Source: an uncultured Clostridia bacterium
Lineage (GTDB): Bacteria; Bacillota; Clostridia; Christensenellales; Borkfalkiaceae
Reading direction: 5' to 3'
DNA: 37,501 bases
Assembly (NCBI GenBank): GCA_944367415.1
Contig: CALVWN010000036.1
Coordinates: 1-37,501, forward strand
This document shows, in pieces, positions 31,387 through 37,501 of the stretch (within the stretch, counting starts at the first letter, position 1; each line of letters starts with the position of its first letter). Position numbers and translations under genes: made by a program. The notes beneath the pieces are model-generated. The model saw nothing but the letters and a program-made list of their open reading frames with translations, had not been told where the DNA came from and ran no database searches.

Positions 31387-31400
31387 GATGTTCATGGTTC

Positions 31401-32549
31401 TCAAAGGAGGGAACGATAGAGCGCGATGATGTCCTCTTTCGTGGGATCCTTGGGGTTGCCGGGACGGCAGGCGTCGTCCATTGCGGACTGTGCCAGGAAA
31501 TCGAGATCCTCTTCCTTGACGATGTTCTTGAGATCCTTAGGGATACCGACGTCCTCGGAGAGCTGCTTGACGGCGGCGACGGCTGCCTTGCGCGCCTCGT
31601 CGAGCGTCATCTTGTCGACGCCCTCCACGCCCATCGCCTTGGCGATGTCGCGGTACTTCTCGCCCGTCGCGTCTGCATTGTACTCCATAACGGTGGGCAG
31701 CAGGATGGCGTTTGCGACGCCGTGAGGGGTATCATAGAGCGCACCGAGAGGGTGAGCCATCGAGTGGACGATGCCAAGCCCCACGTTGGAGAAGCCCATG
31801 CCGGCGATGTACTGACCGAGCGCCATGCCCTCTCTGCCTACGGGGGTGTTGGCGACGGCGCCGCGCAGGTTCGTGGAGATGATCTCGATCGCCTTGGGAT
31901 GGGACCTATCGCTCATCGCCCATGCGCCCTTGGTGATATAGCCCTCGATGGCGTGGGTGAGCGCGTCCATGCCCGTTGCTGCCGTGAGGCCCTTGGGCAT
32001 ACTGCTCATCATGTCGGGATCGACGACGGCGACGACGGGGATGTCGTGCACGTCGACGCAGACCATCTTACGGTTCTTTTCGGTATCCGTGATGACGTAG
32101 TTGATGGTGACTTCCGCCGCGGTGCCCGCCGTCGTGGGAACGGCGATGATGGGCACACACTTATTCTTGGTGGGCGCGACGCCCTCCAGCGAACGCACAT
32201 CTGCGAACTCGGGGTTGGCGATGATGATGCCGATCGCCTTTGCGGTGTCCATCGAGGAACCGCCGCCGATGGCGACGATGCAGTCTGCGCCGCTCTTCTT
32301 GAACGCCGCAACGCCCGTCTGCACGTTTTCGATGGTGGGATTTGCCTTGATCTGCGAATAGATCTCGTAGGCGATGCCCGCCTCATCGAGGACGTCGGTC
32401 ACCTTCTTGGTGACGCCGAACTTCAGAAGATCGGGGTCGGAGCAGACGAAGCACTTCTTGAAGCCTCTGCCCTTGACCTCGTTTGCGATCTCCTTGATCG
32501 CGCCCTTGCCGTGATAGCTCGTCTCATTGAGAACAAAACGATTTGCCAT
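31401..32549 (-). CDS. fucO: Lactaldehyde reductase (iron-containing alcohol dehydrogenase)
   Basis: Reduces L-lactaldehyde, the product of rhamnulose-1-phosphate cleavage, to 1,2-propanediol with NADH. 382 residues, nearly colinear with E. coli FucO: MANRFVLNET start, NAD-binding IGGGSSMDTAKAIG, PTTAGTAAEVTINYVIT, and metal ligands in GMDALTHAIEGYI (Asp, His) and HSMAHPLGALYDTPHG (two His). AAGGAGAT precedes the ATG. It lies downstream of rhaD but has its own strong promoter, so it may also be expressed apart from the rhamnose genes. Confidence 0.94.
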   Translation of the reverse strand: MANRFVLNETSYHGKGAIKEIANEVKGRGFKKCFVCSDPDLLKFGVTKKVTDVLDEAGIAYEIYSQIKANPTIENVQTGVAAFKKSGADCIVAIGGGSSMDTAKAIGIIIANPEFADVRSLEGVAPTKNKCVPIIAVPTTAGTAAEVTINYVITDTEKNRKMVCVDVHDIPVVAVVDPDMMSSMPKGLTAATGMDALTHAIEGYITKGAWAMSDRSHPKAIEIISTNLRGAVANTPVGREGMALGQYIAGMGFSNVGLGIVHSMAHPLGALYDTPHGVANAILLPTVMEYNADATGEKYRDIAKAMGVEGVDKMTLDEARKAAVAAVKQLSEDVGIPKDLKNIVKEEDLDFLAQSAMDDACRPGNPKDPTKEDIIALYRSLL

Positions 32550-32578
32550 ACAAAATTATCTCCTTATCATTTTTTTCT

Positions 32579-32607
32579 ATCATACCCCTTGCGGGGCAAA
32601 TTGTCAA
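32579..32607 (-). promoter_or_regulatory. Sigma-A promoter of fucO
   Basis: Minus strand: TTGACA (32602-32607), 17-base spacer, TATGAT (32579-32584). The spacer contains the palindrome CCCC-TTGC-GGGG (plus strand, 32585-32596), a possible operator. Confidence 0.8.
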
Positions 32608-32615
32608 GATACAAG

Positions 32616-33449
32616 TTACAGATTGAGGAAATCTTTGCGGTATTTGACGCCGAACAGCTCGACGAGCTTGACCATATCCTCGTCCTTTATGGTGTTCTTC
32701 CTCGGAAGATGCGCCGTGAGCATATAGATCTGCGCGGCTTTTTCCACCGTCTCGATGAGTCCGAAGGTCTCGTCCATCGTCTTGCCCGCGCCGTAGATGC
32801 CGTGCATCGCCCAGATGACGAGGCGGAACTCCTCCATCTTCTTTGCCGTCGCCTTGCCGATCTCCGACGTGCCGCACAGCATCCAGGGAAGCACGCCCAC
32901 GCCGTCGGGGAAGACCACGATGCACTCCGTGCACATCTCCCAGAGGGTGTGCGTGAACTTCTTCTCGTCCAGCTCGTGCACATAGTTCATCGCAAGCGTG
33001 TTGGTCGGGTGCGAATGCATGACGACGCGGTTCTCGGGGTCGACCTTGAGGCGAGCCATGTGGCTCATCATATGTGCGGGGAACTCCGACGTCGGCCTGC
33101 CGCCGTCCTTAAAGCCCCAAAGAAGCTCCGCGTTCTTGCCGCCCTTGCCGATGCGCACGATGCCGAGGTTGGTCTCGGGATCCTTTTCGACGTTCTTGAA
33201 ATACTTGCCCGTTCCCGTAACGATGAAGATCCTGCCCTCGAGCGGGGAGGCGTCGAAGTCCTCCTCGTTGACGCCCATGAAGGGAATGGTGCGGATGACC
33301 TTGCCGAGGTCGAGATACTCCGCGACTTCCTCCGTCTTGAGCAGATAGCTGATGTTGCCGCCGTTGCGCTCGTCCCAGCCGAGACGGTACATATTTGCCG
33401 TCGTGTCACACATCTCGCGCACAAAGGGCGCCGTCATGATATCCTTCAT
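32616..33449 (-). CDS. rhaD: L-rhamnulose-1-phosphate aldolase
   Basis: Class II zinc aldolase splitting L-rhamnulose-1-phosphate into DHAP and L-lactaldehyde. 277 residues. It shows LGWDERNGGNISYLL, phosphate-binding IVTGTGKYFKNV, catalytic Glu in TSEFPAHMMSH, zinc ligands HSH in VVMHSHPTN and the third His in WAMHGIYGAGKTMDETFGL, and FPDGVGVLPWM. The ATG overlaps the rhaA stop (ATGA), with ribosome-binding sequence GGAGAG inside the end of rhaA. All expected catalytic residues are present. Confidence 0.95.
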   Translation of the reverse strand: MKDIMTAPFVREMCDTTANMYRLGWDERNGGNISYLLKTEEVAEYLDLGKVIRTIPFMGVNEEDFDASPLEGRIFIVTGTGKYFKNVEKDPETNLGIVRIGKGGKNAELLWGFKDGGRPTSEFPAHMMSHMARLKVDPENRVVMHSHPTNTLAMNYVHELDEKKFTHTLWEMCTECIVVFPDGVGVLPWMLCGTSEIGKATAKKMEEFRLVIWAMHGIYGAGKTMDETFGLIETVEKAAQIYMLTAHLPRKNTIKDEDMVKLVELFGVKYRKDFLNL

Positions 33450-34687
33450 TTTCTCTCCTCCAGAATCTTCTTTTCATAGTTCATGATGGGGTCAAAGTCA
33501 TTCTCCTCCAGCCCGTTGCGCCGCAGGTACTCCTCCCAGACGTCGCCGAAGGGCAGCATCTTGACGCGCTCCTGCAGGTACATGAGGCGGGTGAACTCCC
33601 CCTTCTCCTGCACTTCTTTCATCGCCGCGTTGGGCAGAAGCAGCGCATACAAAAGCCCCTTCTCGACGGAGCGCTGCCCCGTCACCCACGCAAACACGCG
33701 GTTGATGGAGGCGTCGAAGTAGTCGAGCGCGATCTTGACCTTGCCGAGCGCGTCGTTGCGGACGACCTCCTTCATGATCTCCTTGAGTTCATCCTCGAAG
33801 ATGACGACGTGGTCGCTGTCCCAGCGCACGGGGCGGGAGACGTGCAGCGCCACCTTGTCGTAGAAGGCGAGCATGGCGGGGATCTTGTCGGAGACCACCT
33901 CGGTCGGGTGATAGTGCCCGTTGTCGAGCAGCGAGCAGATGCCGCGCGTCGCCGCATAGTTCTGACAGAATTCGCTCGGACCGACCGTGTAGCTCTCCAC
34001 GCCGATGCCGAACACCTTGCTCTCGACGGCGGGGATCACCCACTCCTTGTCATAGTTTTCGAGGATCTCGTCGAGCGACTGCTTGTAGCGCAGGCGGGGC
34101 GAGAGACGGTCGGCGGGAATGTCCTTATAGCCGTCGGGGATCCAGATGTTGACGAGGCAGAGGCTGTTCATCTCCTTTGCAAGATACGCGGCGATCTCCA
34201 TGCTGCGCTTGCCGTGCTCCACCCAGAACTTTCTCGTCGCCTCGTCGGGCGAGGAGAGCGTCAGCCCGTCCTTCATCTTCGGGTGCGCGAAGAAGGTCGG
34301 GTTGAAGTCGATGCCCTCGATGCCGTGTTCCTTTGCGAACTTCACCCAGGGTGCGAAGTGCTCGGGGCGGTAGGCGTCGCGGTCGATCTTGCCCTTCTCA
34401 TCGCCGAGGAAGGCGTAGCTCGCATGGATGTTGATGCGCTTGGTGCCGGGCATCAGCGAGAGCGCATAGGCATAATCCGCCATCAGCTCTTCGGGCGTGC
34501 GCGCACGGCCGGGGTAATTGCCCGTCGTCTGGATGCCGCCCGAGAGGCTCTCGGCGCCCTCGAACCCGAGCACGTCGTCTCCCTGCCAGCAGTGCACGGA
34601 GATCGGCACGCGCTGCAGCGTCGCGAGCGCCGCTTCGGTGTCGATGCCGAGGCCGGCGTACGCCTTCTTTGCTTCCTGATAACTCAT
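33446..34687 (-). CDS. rhaA: L-rhamnose isomerase
   Basis: Interconverts L-rhamnose and L-rhamnulose; TIM-barrel with two divalent metals. 413 residues. The family block PISVHCWQGDDVLGFEG near the N-terminus is followed by GGIQTTGNYPGRARTPEEL, INIHASYAF, the metal-site segments VESKVFGIGVESYTVGPSEF, LLDNGHYHPTEVVSDK and ALDYFDASINRV. The ATG at 34685-34687 has GGAGG upstream at a good distance; a start seven codons earlier overlaps that site. It lies between rhaB (52 bases upstream) and rhaD (overlap). Confidence 0.96.
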   Translation of the reverse strand: MSYQEAKKAYAGLGIDTEAALATLQRVPISVHCWQGDDVLGFEGAESLSGGIQTTGNYPGRARTPEELMADYAYALSLMPGTKRINIHASYAFLGDEKGKIDRDAYRPEHFAPWVKFAKEHGIEGIDFNPTFFAHPKMKDGLTLSSPDEATRKFWVEHGKRSMEIAAYLAKEMNSLCLVNIWIPDGYKDIPADRLSPRLRYKQSLDEILENYDKEWVIPAVESKVFGIGVESYTVGPSEFCQNYAATRGICSLLDNGHYHPTEVVSDKIPAMLAFYDKVALHVSRPVRWDSDHVVIFEDELKEIMKEVVRNDALGKVKIALDYFDASINRVFAWVTGQRSVEKGLLYALLLPNAAMKEVQEKGEFTRLMYLQERVKMLPFGDVWEEYLRRNGLEENDFDPIMNYEKKILEERK

Positions 34688-34739
34688 GATCTTACCTCCA
34701 CTTGTCATATTGATGGTTTTTATCGTTTTATTCGGTCGT

Positions 34740-36038
34740 TCAGCGGCGCGCCTGCACGCTCAGATTTCCGAGCGCCGTCGCCTCGATGGGCAGCGCCACC
34801 ACGCGGATCCCGCAGAGCGAATAGGTCAGCTCGTTGAGATAGCTGTTCTTGGCGCCGCCGCCCACGATGTAGAGTGTCTCGAAACGCTTGTCCATACAGG
34901 TGCTGAGTTCGGTGAGCGCGAGGCGATAGCTCGTCGCGAGGCTGCGATAGGCGCAGCGGAAGAAATCGCCGATCGTCACGGGGCGCTTGTCCGCGTCGAA
35001 CCAGCTCTCGAACGCCGCCTTCATGCTCTCGGGCGCGAGGAAACGCGCGTCGTCGGCGTCCACGATGCCCGCAAAGGCGCTCTCCTGCGCCGCGTGCATG
35101 ACGTCGTCATAGGACATCTCGGGGCACAGCTCCTTCTTGAGCGACTGGATGAGCCACATTCCCATGATGTTTTTCTGAAAACGGACGTATCCCACGCCGC
35201 CCTCGTTGGAGAAGTTCGCCCTGCGCGCGGCGTCCGTGCAGATGGCGTGCGGCGATTTGGCACCGAGCAGCGACCACGTGCCGCTCGAAAGGTAAGCGCC
35301 CTCCGTCATGGGAATGCCCTCCACGGCGCTCGCCGTGTCGTGCGAGGCGCAGAACACCACCTGCGTGTCGCCCCCCACTTCCGCCGCGATCTCGGGCAGG
35401 AGCGAGCCGAGCGCGCTCCCGGGCGCCGTGAGCTTGCAGAAGAGCTGCTGCGGCAGTCCCAGCGCGCCGATGAGTTCGCGGTCATACTCTCCCGTCGCGG
35501 CGTTGACAAGCCCCGTCGTCGTCGCATTGGTATATTCGTGCGCCTTGACTCCCGTCAGACGCCAGGAGAGATACTCGGGGATCATGAGAAAATCGGTCAC
35601 CCCTTCCAGCCGGCCGCGCACAAGATCGTCCGACAGCTGATAGACGGTATTGAAGGGCTGGAACTGAATGCCCGTGTGCGCATACAGCGTCTCGAAAGGC
35701 ACCTTGCGATGCACCTCGCCGATGACGCTCTGCGTACGGTCGTCGCGGTAGGCGTAGCAGGGCAGCACCTCGCGCGTTCCCCGCAAAAGAACATAGTCGA
35801 CCGCCCAGGTGTCGATGGCGAGACTCTCGATGTGCGGGTATTTGGCGAACGCCGCCCTGATCCCCGCCTTGACGTTTTCAAACAGCGCGGCGATATCCCA
35901 GACGAGATGCCCGTCCTGCCGCACGACGCCGTTGGGGAAACGGAACACTTCCTCGGTGCGCATCGCACCGTTTTCCTTCCAGCCGACAATGTGGCGTCCG
36001 CTCGACGCGCCGATATCGATCGCCAGGTAATATTTCAT
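34740..36038 (-). CDS. rhaB: L-rhamnulokinase
   Basis: FGGY-family kinase phosphorylating L-rhamnulose at O1. 432 residues. Phosphate-1 loop AIDIGASSGRHIVG, DTWAVDYVLL, PFNTVYQLSDD, CASHDTASAVEGIP, SSGTWSLLG, and adenosine loop IVGGGAKNSYLNEL are as in RhaB. The ATG at 36036-36038 has AAGGAG 9 bases upstream; an ATG three codons earlier directly abuts that AAGGAG and is less likely. It is the first gene of the catabolic operon rhaB-rhaA-rhaD(-fucO), divergent from the AraC regulator. No rhamnose transporter or mutarotase (rhaM) is in view. Confidence 0.95.
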   Translation of the reverse strand: MKYYLAIDIGASSGRHIVGWKENGAMRTEEVFRFPNGVVRQDGHLVWDIAALFENVKAGIRAAFAKYPHIESLAIDTWAVDYVLLRGTREVLPCYAYRDDRTQSVIGEVHRKVPFETLYAHTGIQFQPFNTVYQLSDDLVRGRLEGVTDFLMIPEYLSWRLTGVKAHEYTNATTTGLVNAATGEYDRELIGALGLPQQLFCKLTAPGSALGSLLPEIAAEVGGDTQVVFCASHDTASAVEGIPMTEGAYLSSGTWSLLGAKSPHAICTDAARRANFSNEGGVGYVRFQKNIMGMWLIQSLKKELCPEMSYDDVMHAAQESAFAGIVDADDARFLAPESMKAAFESWFDADKRPVTIGDFFRCAYRSLATSYRLALTELSTCMDKRFETLYIVGGGAKNSYLNELTYSLCGIRVVALPIEATALGNLSVQARR

Positions 36039-36071
36039 ATCCTTCATCTCCTTTTCCCTCTCTTCAAACGT

Positions 36072-37117: not shown

Positions 37118-37145
37118 CGCCCCCGCACGGGGGCGCGCACTTTTT
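37118..37145 (+). terminator. Intrinsic terminator of the AraC-family gene
   Basis: Arms CGCCCCC (37118-37124) and GGGGGCG (37129-37135), loop GCAC, then CGCACTTTTT. Confidence 0.75.
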
Positions 37146-37176: not shown

Positions 37177-37205
37177 TTGCTTTTTTCGCCCGGATGGTGT
37201 AAGAT
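37177..37205 (+). promoter_or_regulatory. Promoter reading into the 161-base repeat array
   Basis: TTGCTT (37177-37182), 17-base spacer, TAAGAT (37200-37205). It lies after the AraC terminator with no gene downstream in the window, so the repeats are probably transcribed on their own. Confidence 0.5.
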
Positions 37206-37246
37206 AAACATACTGCACCGGCTTCCCGCCTCTGTAATTCAAAATC

Positions 37247-37501
37247 ATACGCTTCCGTAGTTAAATGGATATAACAGCCCGCACCTTTCGGGCCGTTGTG
37301 CGTTCGCGCGAGGGCTTTGCACGCTGCTCTGCCGAGTGGGCCCCTTTCAGGGGTTTCGGCAGATACCTGCTACAAGCCATAGGCTTGTCGGCGGGAATAC
37401 AAATTGGATACGCTTCCGGAGTTAAATGGATATAACAGCCCGCACCTTTCGGGCCGTTGTGCGTTCGCGCGAGGGCTTTGCACGCTGCTCTGCCGAGTGG
37501 G
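37247..37501 (+). repeat. 161-base tandem repeat with tRNA-like and hairpin segments (continues past window)
   Basis: Unit 1 is 37247-37407; unit 2 starts at 37408 and runs off the end. The 94 overlapping bases differ at one position (T37258/G37419). Each unit opens with a tRNA-Arg-like 5' part and then has a two-part hairpin (TCTGCCGA 37328-37335 with TCGGCAGA 37356-37363, enclosing CCCCT/AGGGG) and ACAAGCC/GGCTTGT (37372-37388). The stretch 37146-37246 holds only a promoter. No recognised family. Confidence 0.85.
37251..37306 (+). other. Truncated tRNA-Arg(CCU)-like sequence within the repeat
   Basis: Follows tRNA geometry: acceptor-like GCTTCCG, TA, D-stem GTTA/TAAC around loop AATGGATA (with GG), A26, anticodon-type stem GCCCG/CGGGC with 7-base loop CACCTTT (CCT at anticodon positions, but A not U at 33), four variable bases, GTGCG and TTCG. 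It then departs: no 3' T-stem, no CGGAAGC and no CCA. It is not a working tRNA gene. A second copy starts at 37412. Confidence 0.5.

Follow-up and report, generated by a model that had tools for sequence, protein, structure and literature searches.

A putative family of short hairpin elements in the loops of partial tRNA gene copies

Introduction

The systems closest to the repeat analyzed here are integrative elements and genomic islands at tRNA genes, including cis-mobilisable elements, hairpin repeats of the REP and MITE type, eukaryotic tRNA-derived SINEs, and tRNA introns. Integrative elements at tRNA sites have their junctions in tRNA loops, leave an intact tRNA beside a partial copy, and accrete in tandem. 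REP/MITE-type repeats are short non-coding hairpins with several copies per genome, SINEs join a tRNA-like head to an unrelated body, and tRNA introns are inserts in tRNA loops.

The units described here, from an uncultured Clostridia bacterium and its relatives, are like each of these systems in the respects just named. Unlike tRNA-site integrative elements, however, they are 88-240 nt long, carry no integrase or other gene, and have a structured body and an inverted copy of the T-arm. Unlike REP/MITE-type repeats, they are found with partial tRNA copies, their terminal stem matches the neighbouring tRNA, and Y1 genes are present in 3 of 12 element-bearing genomes tested. They differ from SINEs in sitting at their tRNA gene, in including DNA from outside the mature tRNA, and in that no reverse transcriptase (RT) was found in 11 of 12 element-bearing genomes tested, and from tRNA introns in that the interrupted copy is without its acceptor 3' strand or its 5' part and is adjoined by an intact tRNA. 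No description of such a family of tRNA-gene hairpin repeats was found in the open-access literature.

Results

The window analyzed, 37,501 nt in length, is the whole of contig C36 of the source genome (G000), a 1.73 Mb draft in 86 contigs that is 74% complete. At its end, an AraC-type gene is followed on the forward strand by a terminator-like hairpin, a promoter, a first unit, and a second, partial unit. The terminator-like structure (37118..37140; hairpin at 37118-37135 plus a T-run) is of a kind expected 0.8 times by chance and agrees with a prior sequence-only reading in which the upstream gene is terminated. That reading also had a promoter reading into the repeat; the element concerned, TTGCTT-17-TAAGAT (37177..37205), aligns with the tRNA-Arg promoter of the relative G004, although a simple consensus scan (0.3 expected by chance) did not pick it up. 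Unit 1 (37251..37411) defines a period of 161 nt, from G1 of one tRNA copy to G1 of the next, and unit 2 (37412..37501; 90 nt), delimited by comparison with unit 1, is stopped by the contig end. The two are identical at 93 of 94 bases (99%), confirming the claim of at least 1.6 tandem copies with one difference; as fewer than two copies lie in the window, the repeat is absent from the TRF output. On the upstream side of the array region, the same contig carries genes at 31400-36050 that, from their translations, we take to serve rhamnose use (kinase, isomerase, aldolase, and alcohol dehydrogenase).

The intact tRNA-Arg(CCU) gene of the source genome lies at C64:136-210 (locus L041), close to the start of that contig. 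In G004, the AraC orthologue (77% identity) and the aligned promoter run straight into an intact tRNA-Arg with no 5' unit, and on this basis C36 and C64 very likely flank the array as the two halves of a single locus. Rather than standing free, the unit sits on the leader side of the tRNA-Arg(CCU) gene. The sequence of locus L151 is that of the G004 locus, so the orthologous site without a 5' unit counts once and not twice. C64 matches G017 at 96% over its first 249 bases, and a weak match to model R1 (24.3 bits) suggests that a degenerate unit lies immediately 5' of the tRNA in G017 (L255).

Compared with the intact C64 gene and with relatives, the first part of unit 1 (37251..37306) is the 5' part of tRNA-Arg(CCU) up to the TTCG of the T-loop. 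As had been noted, the acceptor 5' strand, D-arm, anticodon stem, CCU, and TTCG are all present; the anticodon loop reads CACCUUU and has lost U33. A conserved 56-nt hairpin insert, the class A1 body, follows (37307..37362); it is delimited by alignments A1 and A3, by covariation, and by model R3, which matches 37298-37370, the window being among the sequences that built it. Behind the insert, the T-stem 3' strand ATACCTGC (37363..37370) re-closes the T-stem as judged by covariation, with two of five pairs changed on both sides and 96.4% of cells paired in A1 (77% in A3), and the relative locus L024 has an exact ATTCCCGCC at this position. An inverted copy of the T-arm 3' strand, CGGCGGGAATAC (37389..37400), is identified by its sequence and by counting the alternative helix that it would form, and occupies the place of the acceptor 3' strand, which is missing. 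The view that both the T-arm and the acceptor 3' strand were lost thus holds for the latter but not for the T-arm, which is split by the insert with its 3' strand following. Read from its sequence, the unit is a pseudo-tRNA-Arg whose T-loop is split TTCG/ATT by the 56-nt insert. Neither ARAGORN nor Rfam at gathering score makes any call in the window, and Rfam run over ten loci gave only tRNA rows above cut-off. Relative to tRNA (RF00005, complete cloverleaf), the window unit falls outside the family, with no call and no acceptor 3' strand; a relative's unit, L115 2889-2958, scores 31.3 bits versus the tRNA cut-off of 29.

The unit folds with z = -4.25, and none of 200 shuffles folded as well. 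Alignment A1, comprising the window unit and 16 others, has a common layout of a tRNA-Arg copy, a T-loop insert, and a T-stem re-closed behind the insert, which in most rows is followed by a short hairpin ending in the inverted copy of the T-arm 3' strand. RNAalifold on A1 gave a fold that ignores the tRNA arms, structures were therefore set by hand, and the covariation counts for A1, the alternative helix, A3, and model R2 accordingly lean towards the chosen folds; on this footing, 96.8% of 410 cells in A1 pair, and 25 cells in nine pairs are changed on both sides, versus 5.7 ± 1.8 two-sided cells in shuffled controls and 0-3 cells when the structure was slid by one to three columns, with about equal support for the alternative helix, in which the T-stem 3' strand pairs with the inverted copy. 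As the tRNA part of the units follows the local tRNA, tRNA evolution contributes part of the A1 covariation. The insert helices (A1 columns 86-117) are free of this contribution, and in the insert alone (A3; 23 sequences at eight tRNA species plus one unassigned), again with a structure set by hand, 31 two-sided cells were counted versus 10.6 ± 2.4 in shuffles. The predicted insert fold is supported by this covariation.

The repeat has matches in 37 of 61 relative genomes, a count that includes plain tRNA-Arg heads. Its exact 26-base head is present in at least 119 records of the genome collection, and 99 of the 119 matches listed have an intact tRNA-Arg by pattern. Among these 99 listed loci, at least 27 have upstream copies of the head, at least 15 have a downstream copy of the 3' part, and one has both, these counts being lower bounds as two loci scored empty, L146 and L088, carry degenerate units. 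Several unrelated kinds of upstream unit occur at the tRNA-Arg(CCU) locus. In kind A, that of the window, hairpins occupy the T-loop; in kind B, the break is at the anticodon loop and there are repeated arm-like sites, with an integrase-like frame, recognized by eye, past the tRNA at some loci; and further kinds are broken at the D-arm. Tandem units that are identical or nearly so occur at L065, L119, L131, and L132, the last of which is a complete locus with two A units and then the tRNA. No clean pair of loci before and after insertion was found: the closest pair, L146 and L157, has a unit in both, and the differences between G004 and the window extend far beyond the array.

Individual loci in this set have features of their own. 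L023, L024, L025, L031, L032, L044, L111, and L118 have upstream units of 185-206 nt broken at the anticodon loop CTCCTAA, most of them with paired direct repeats such as TTGGTATAAA; at L023 and L024 the same repeat also lies past the tRNA, ahead of an integrase-like frame called by eye. To judge by these repeats, the units look like an integrase element shrunk to its two ends. At L096 (7557-), two different tRNA-Arg-like 5' halves stand in tandem, each broken at CTCCTAAG and each followed by near-identical foreign sequence. At L042 (2562-; G048:C21), a truncated tRNA-Arg(CCU) head is followed by a seemingly different tRNA with anticodon CCU, inside which the contig ends; the locus looks as if the tRNA had been replaced.

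The A1 body is also found at other tRNA genes. Model R3 gave 26 matches in 11 of the 61 relative genomes, all within the genus of the source genome; roughly half of these places had supplied sequences to the 23 from which the model was built, having first been found with model R1. Over 291 genomes drawn across the class, two matched, namely the source genome and another member of its family. For 18 of the 26 matches, a same-strand intact tRNA lies within 450 nt, with the body in the T-loop or anticodon loop; units are upstream at Ala(CGC), Arg(CCU), and Arg(CCG), where the body is placed in the anticodon loop, and downstream at Tyr, Ser(GGA), Ser(CGA), Ala(GGC), Glu(CUC), Leu(AAG), and Arg(ACG). 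The other eight have no such tRNA, and four of these are at contig ends of the source genome (C36, C43, C7, and C28). All five A1 matches in the source genome are at most 131 bases from a contig end. At the end of G000:C28 (L253), an A1 unit in a tRNA-Arg(CCG)-like copy stands directly ahead of the last 35 bases, which look like an Illumina adapter.

A second body class, with a common body of ~116 nt, follows tRNA-Pro(CGG), Ser(UGA), Leu(CAG), and Ser(GGA) in the source genome, where each of the four bodies has an inverted copy of its own tRNA's T-arm before it and a direct copy of that tRNA's 3' part, from the T-loop onward, after it. Model R2, built from seven sequences (98% paired; 25 two-sided cells versus 7.7 ± 2.0 in shuffles, on a structure set by hand), gave 84 matches in 21 of the 61 relative genomes, all in the source genus, of which the four in the source genome were in the model. 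Among the 291 class genomes, three matched including the source genome, all of the same family and one of them weakly. The R2 hairpin GTTTGCG..CGCAAAC has well conserved arms and a hypervariable apical loop of ~30 bases.

The inverted T-arm copy follows the tRNA at which it is found. Irrespective of mismatches, 36 R2 matches, representing 13 tRNA species, have a same-strand tRNA ending 20-90 nt upstream. Over 13 nt, the inverted T-arm agrees with this tRNA without mismatch in 29 of them, with one mismatch in five, with two in one, and with seven in one, giving a mean of 0.39 mismatches versus 4.08 for other tRNA species (1164 comparisons, 2.9% of which have at most one). When 72 R2 loci, some of them overlapping, were sorted by the presence of a tRNA and a downstream inverted T-arm copy with at most three mismatches, 45 had both and 27 did not. 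In the set filtered at this threshold, 27 of 37 copies are exact, with a mean of 0.41 mismatches versus 4.42 for other species, and the inverted copy starts 47-56 nt past the tRNA; overall, this class stands ~52 nt downstream of its tRNAs. Of the 27 non-matching loci, 16 were read: at least five follow a large serine recombinase-like C-terminus that runs into a tRNA 3' end, with Pfam backing the recombinase at two (G005:C3 and G002:C22), and the others stand after partial tRNAs or contig ends or have neither. At G005:C3 (L308, L328), G002:C22 (L324, L330), L294, L298, and L325, the last three called by eye, the C-terminal codons of the recombinase-like gene seemingly enter the last bases of the tRNA, with the R2 element next.

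Bodies were next compared within and between genomes. Among 34 distinct bodies, the mean identity is 0.655 for pairs in the same genome at another tRNA (34 pairs), 0.583 for pairs at the same tRNA species in another genome (46 pairs), 0.598 for the remaining pairs (478), and 0.741 for three tandem pairs. When labels were permuted, the same-genome value was reached in 61 of 2000 permutations and the same-tRNA value in 1554 of 2000, so that the signal of the genome is modest and that of the tRNA absent. In G028, the within-genome nearest-neighbour identity is 0.78-0.94 for the bodies at Ser(GCU), Ser(CGA), and Gly(CCC), and each stem fits its own tRNA. Since identity is higher among bodies of one genome than among those of one tRNA species, elements may spread inside a genome, change tRNA, and re-match the stem; alternatively, gene conversion among resident copies could produce the same signal. 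A structured RNA or tRNA-derived mobile repeat had been favoured over a protein, and the structural part of that proposal is borne out by the covariation, the insert at other tRNAs, and the tandem copies. Presence across loci is patchy and the G004 site is without a 5' unit; movement itself was not seen.

For enzymes that might mobilise the units, 12 of the 21 R2-bearing genomes were compared with 13 genomes without R2 matches, three of which have R3 matches. RT was found in 1 of 12 R2-bearing versus 4 of 13 R2-less genomes, Y1 transposase in 3 of 12 versus 3 of 13, with none in the incomplete source genome, and large serine recombinase in 10 of 12 versus 12 of 13. These figures disfavour a reverse-transcribed element and a Y1-driven (IS200/IS605 or REP-type) repeat. 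A large serine recombinase is a possible mobiliser; it was not found in the source genome or in G011, both element-bearing and ~74% complete. The search, which covered these three enzymes, tied none of them to the family, and the unit is too small for any gene. The break point fits the proposed integrase cut at the T-loop. Phage and plasmid records held no match to the unit or body, neither of two core patterns was found in viral contigs, and no free or excised form was seen; a phage or plasmid origin of the body was rejected on these searches. The 22-base head does occur in viral contigs, where 13 of 15 loci are, by pattern, ordinary complete phage tRNAs and two are cut or partial, none being a unit of the window kind. 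Integron-like cassettes using the T-arm as attachment hairpin were also considered from the sequence; the T-loop departs from the R-box rule at its fourth base. A chance repeat is ruled out by the 93/94 identity and the matches in 37 of 61 relatives, and plain tandem tRNA duplication by the presence of the same body at other tRNAs.

Discussion

Partial tRNA copies, mostly beside an intact tRNA, have a conserved body in their T-loop or anticodon loop, and such bodies recur at no fewer than ten tRNA species. With confidence that we would put at about even, we propose that the units may form a family of short, non-autonomous, protein-less hairpin elements anchored to tRNAs, residing in the loops of tRNA-gene copies. 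As in integrative elements, the junction lies in a tRNA loop and one tRNA part is repeated. In the proposed mechanism, recombination would place a body in a loop of a tRNA gene, and the body would carry along or duplicate one tRNA part, thereby restoring an intact tRNA next to a partial copy; the repeated part would be the 5' part upstream, as in the window, or the 3' part with the terminator downstream. After a move to another tRNA, intrastrand templated repair, the process known as quasi-palindrome correction, would bring the hairpin stem into line with the new T-arm, and extra copies would arise by unequal crossing-over. With the array placed between promoter and tRNA, the source of tRNA-Arg in this organism would be a long precursor with pseudo-tRNA leaders. 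We advance more tentatively, as a possibility that we still doubt, that the element is gene-less, confined to tRNA genes, and rewrites its terminal stem for each new tRNA, such that each copy would carry an inverted T-arm imprint of its host tRNA. We place the family between tRNA-site integration and MITE-like repeats, possibly as a class of its own.

The units may instead be scars, namely shrunken attachment sites of integrase-borne elements that were multiplied by slippage and palindrome-driven mutation and make up no family of their own, a reading that we consider unlikely but worth weighing. It accounts for break points in tRNA loops, where integrases break tRNA genes, and it is favoured by type B units at the tRNA-Arg locus, whose arm-like repeats and integrase-like frame resemble integrase ends by eye, as well as by the R2 units, at least 5 of the 16 read, that follow an apparent recombinase C-terminus into a tRNA 3' end (two by Pfam). 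Fragments of tRNA left by integration are also reported to be common (PMC9897764). Decaying scars would not, however, be expected to retain a fairly constant length, covarying helices, and motifs conserved at ten or more tRNA species.

We rate as unlikely, too, and place just behind the scars, a structured leader RNA in which units transcribed from the tRNA promoter and preceding tRNA-Arg(CCU) would control how it folds or is processed, with the T-stem 3' strand possibly acting as a switch between two pairing partners, its own 5' strand and the downstream inverted copy. The promoter conserved with G004, the position of the units between it and the tRNA site, the two-sided changes in both alternative helices, and a stem that follows the local tRNA sequence all suit such a leader. 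It fits poorly with the patchy occurrence of upstream head copies, in at least 27 of the 99 listed tRNA-Arg(CCU) loci, with several unrelated bodies at the same place, and with the same bodies downstream of tRNAs at other loci. Lastly, that an assembler produced the repeat is very improbable: the array is at a contig end, as are all five A1 matches of the source genome (within 131 bases, one before an adapter-like tail), but records of other studies hold complete arrays inside contigs (L065, and L132 with two units and then the tRNA), which refutes an artefact for the family.

If the proposal of a tRNA-anchored hairpin family is correct, tRNA genes would host a tiny repeat class of their own with a target-matched stem, whose recognition rule could be tested by sequence alone. 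Such a family could also account for the positions at which contigs of this draft genome end, and would put a structured RNA inside a tRNA precursor.
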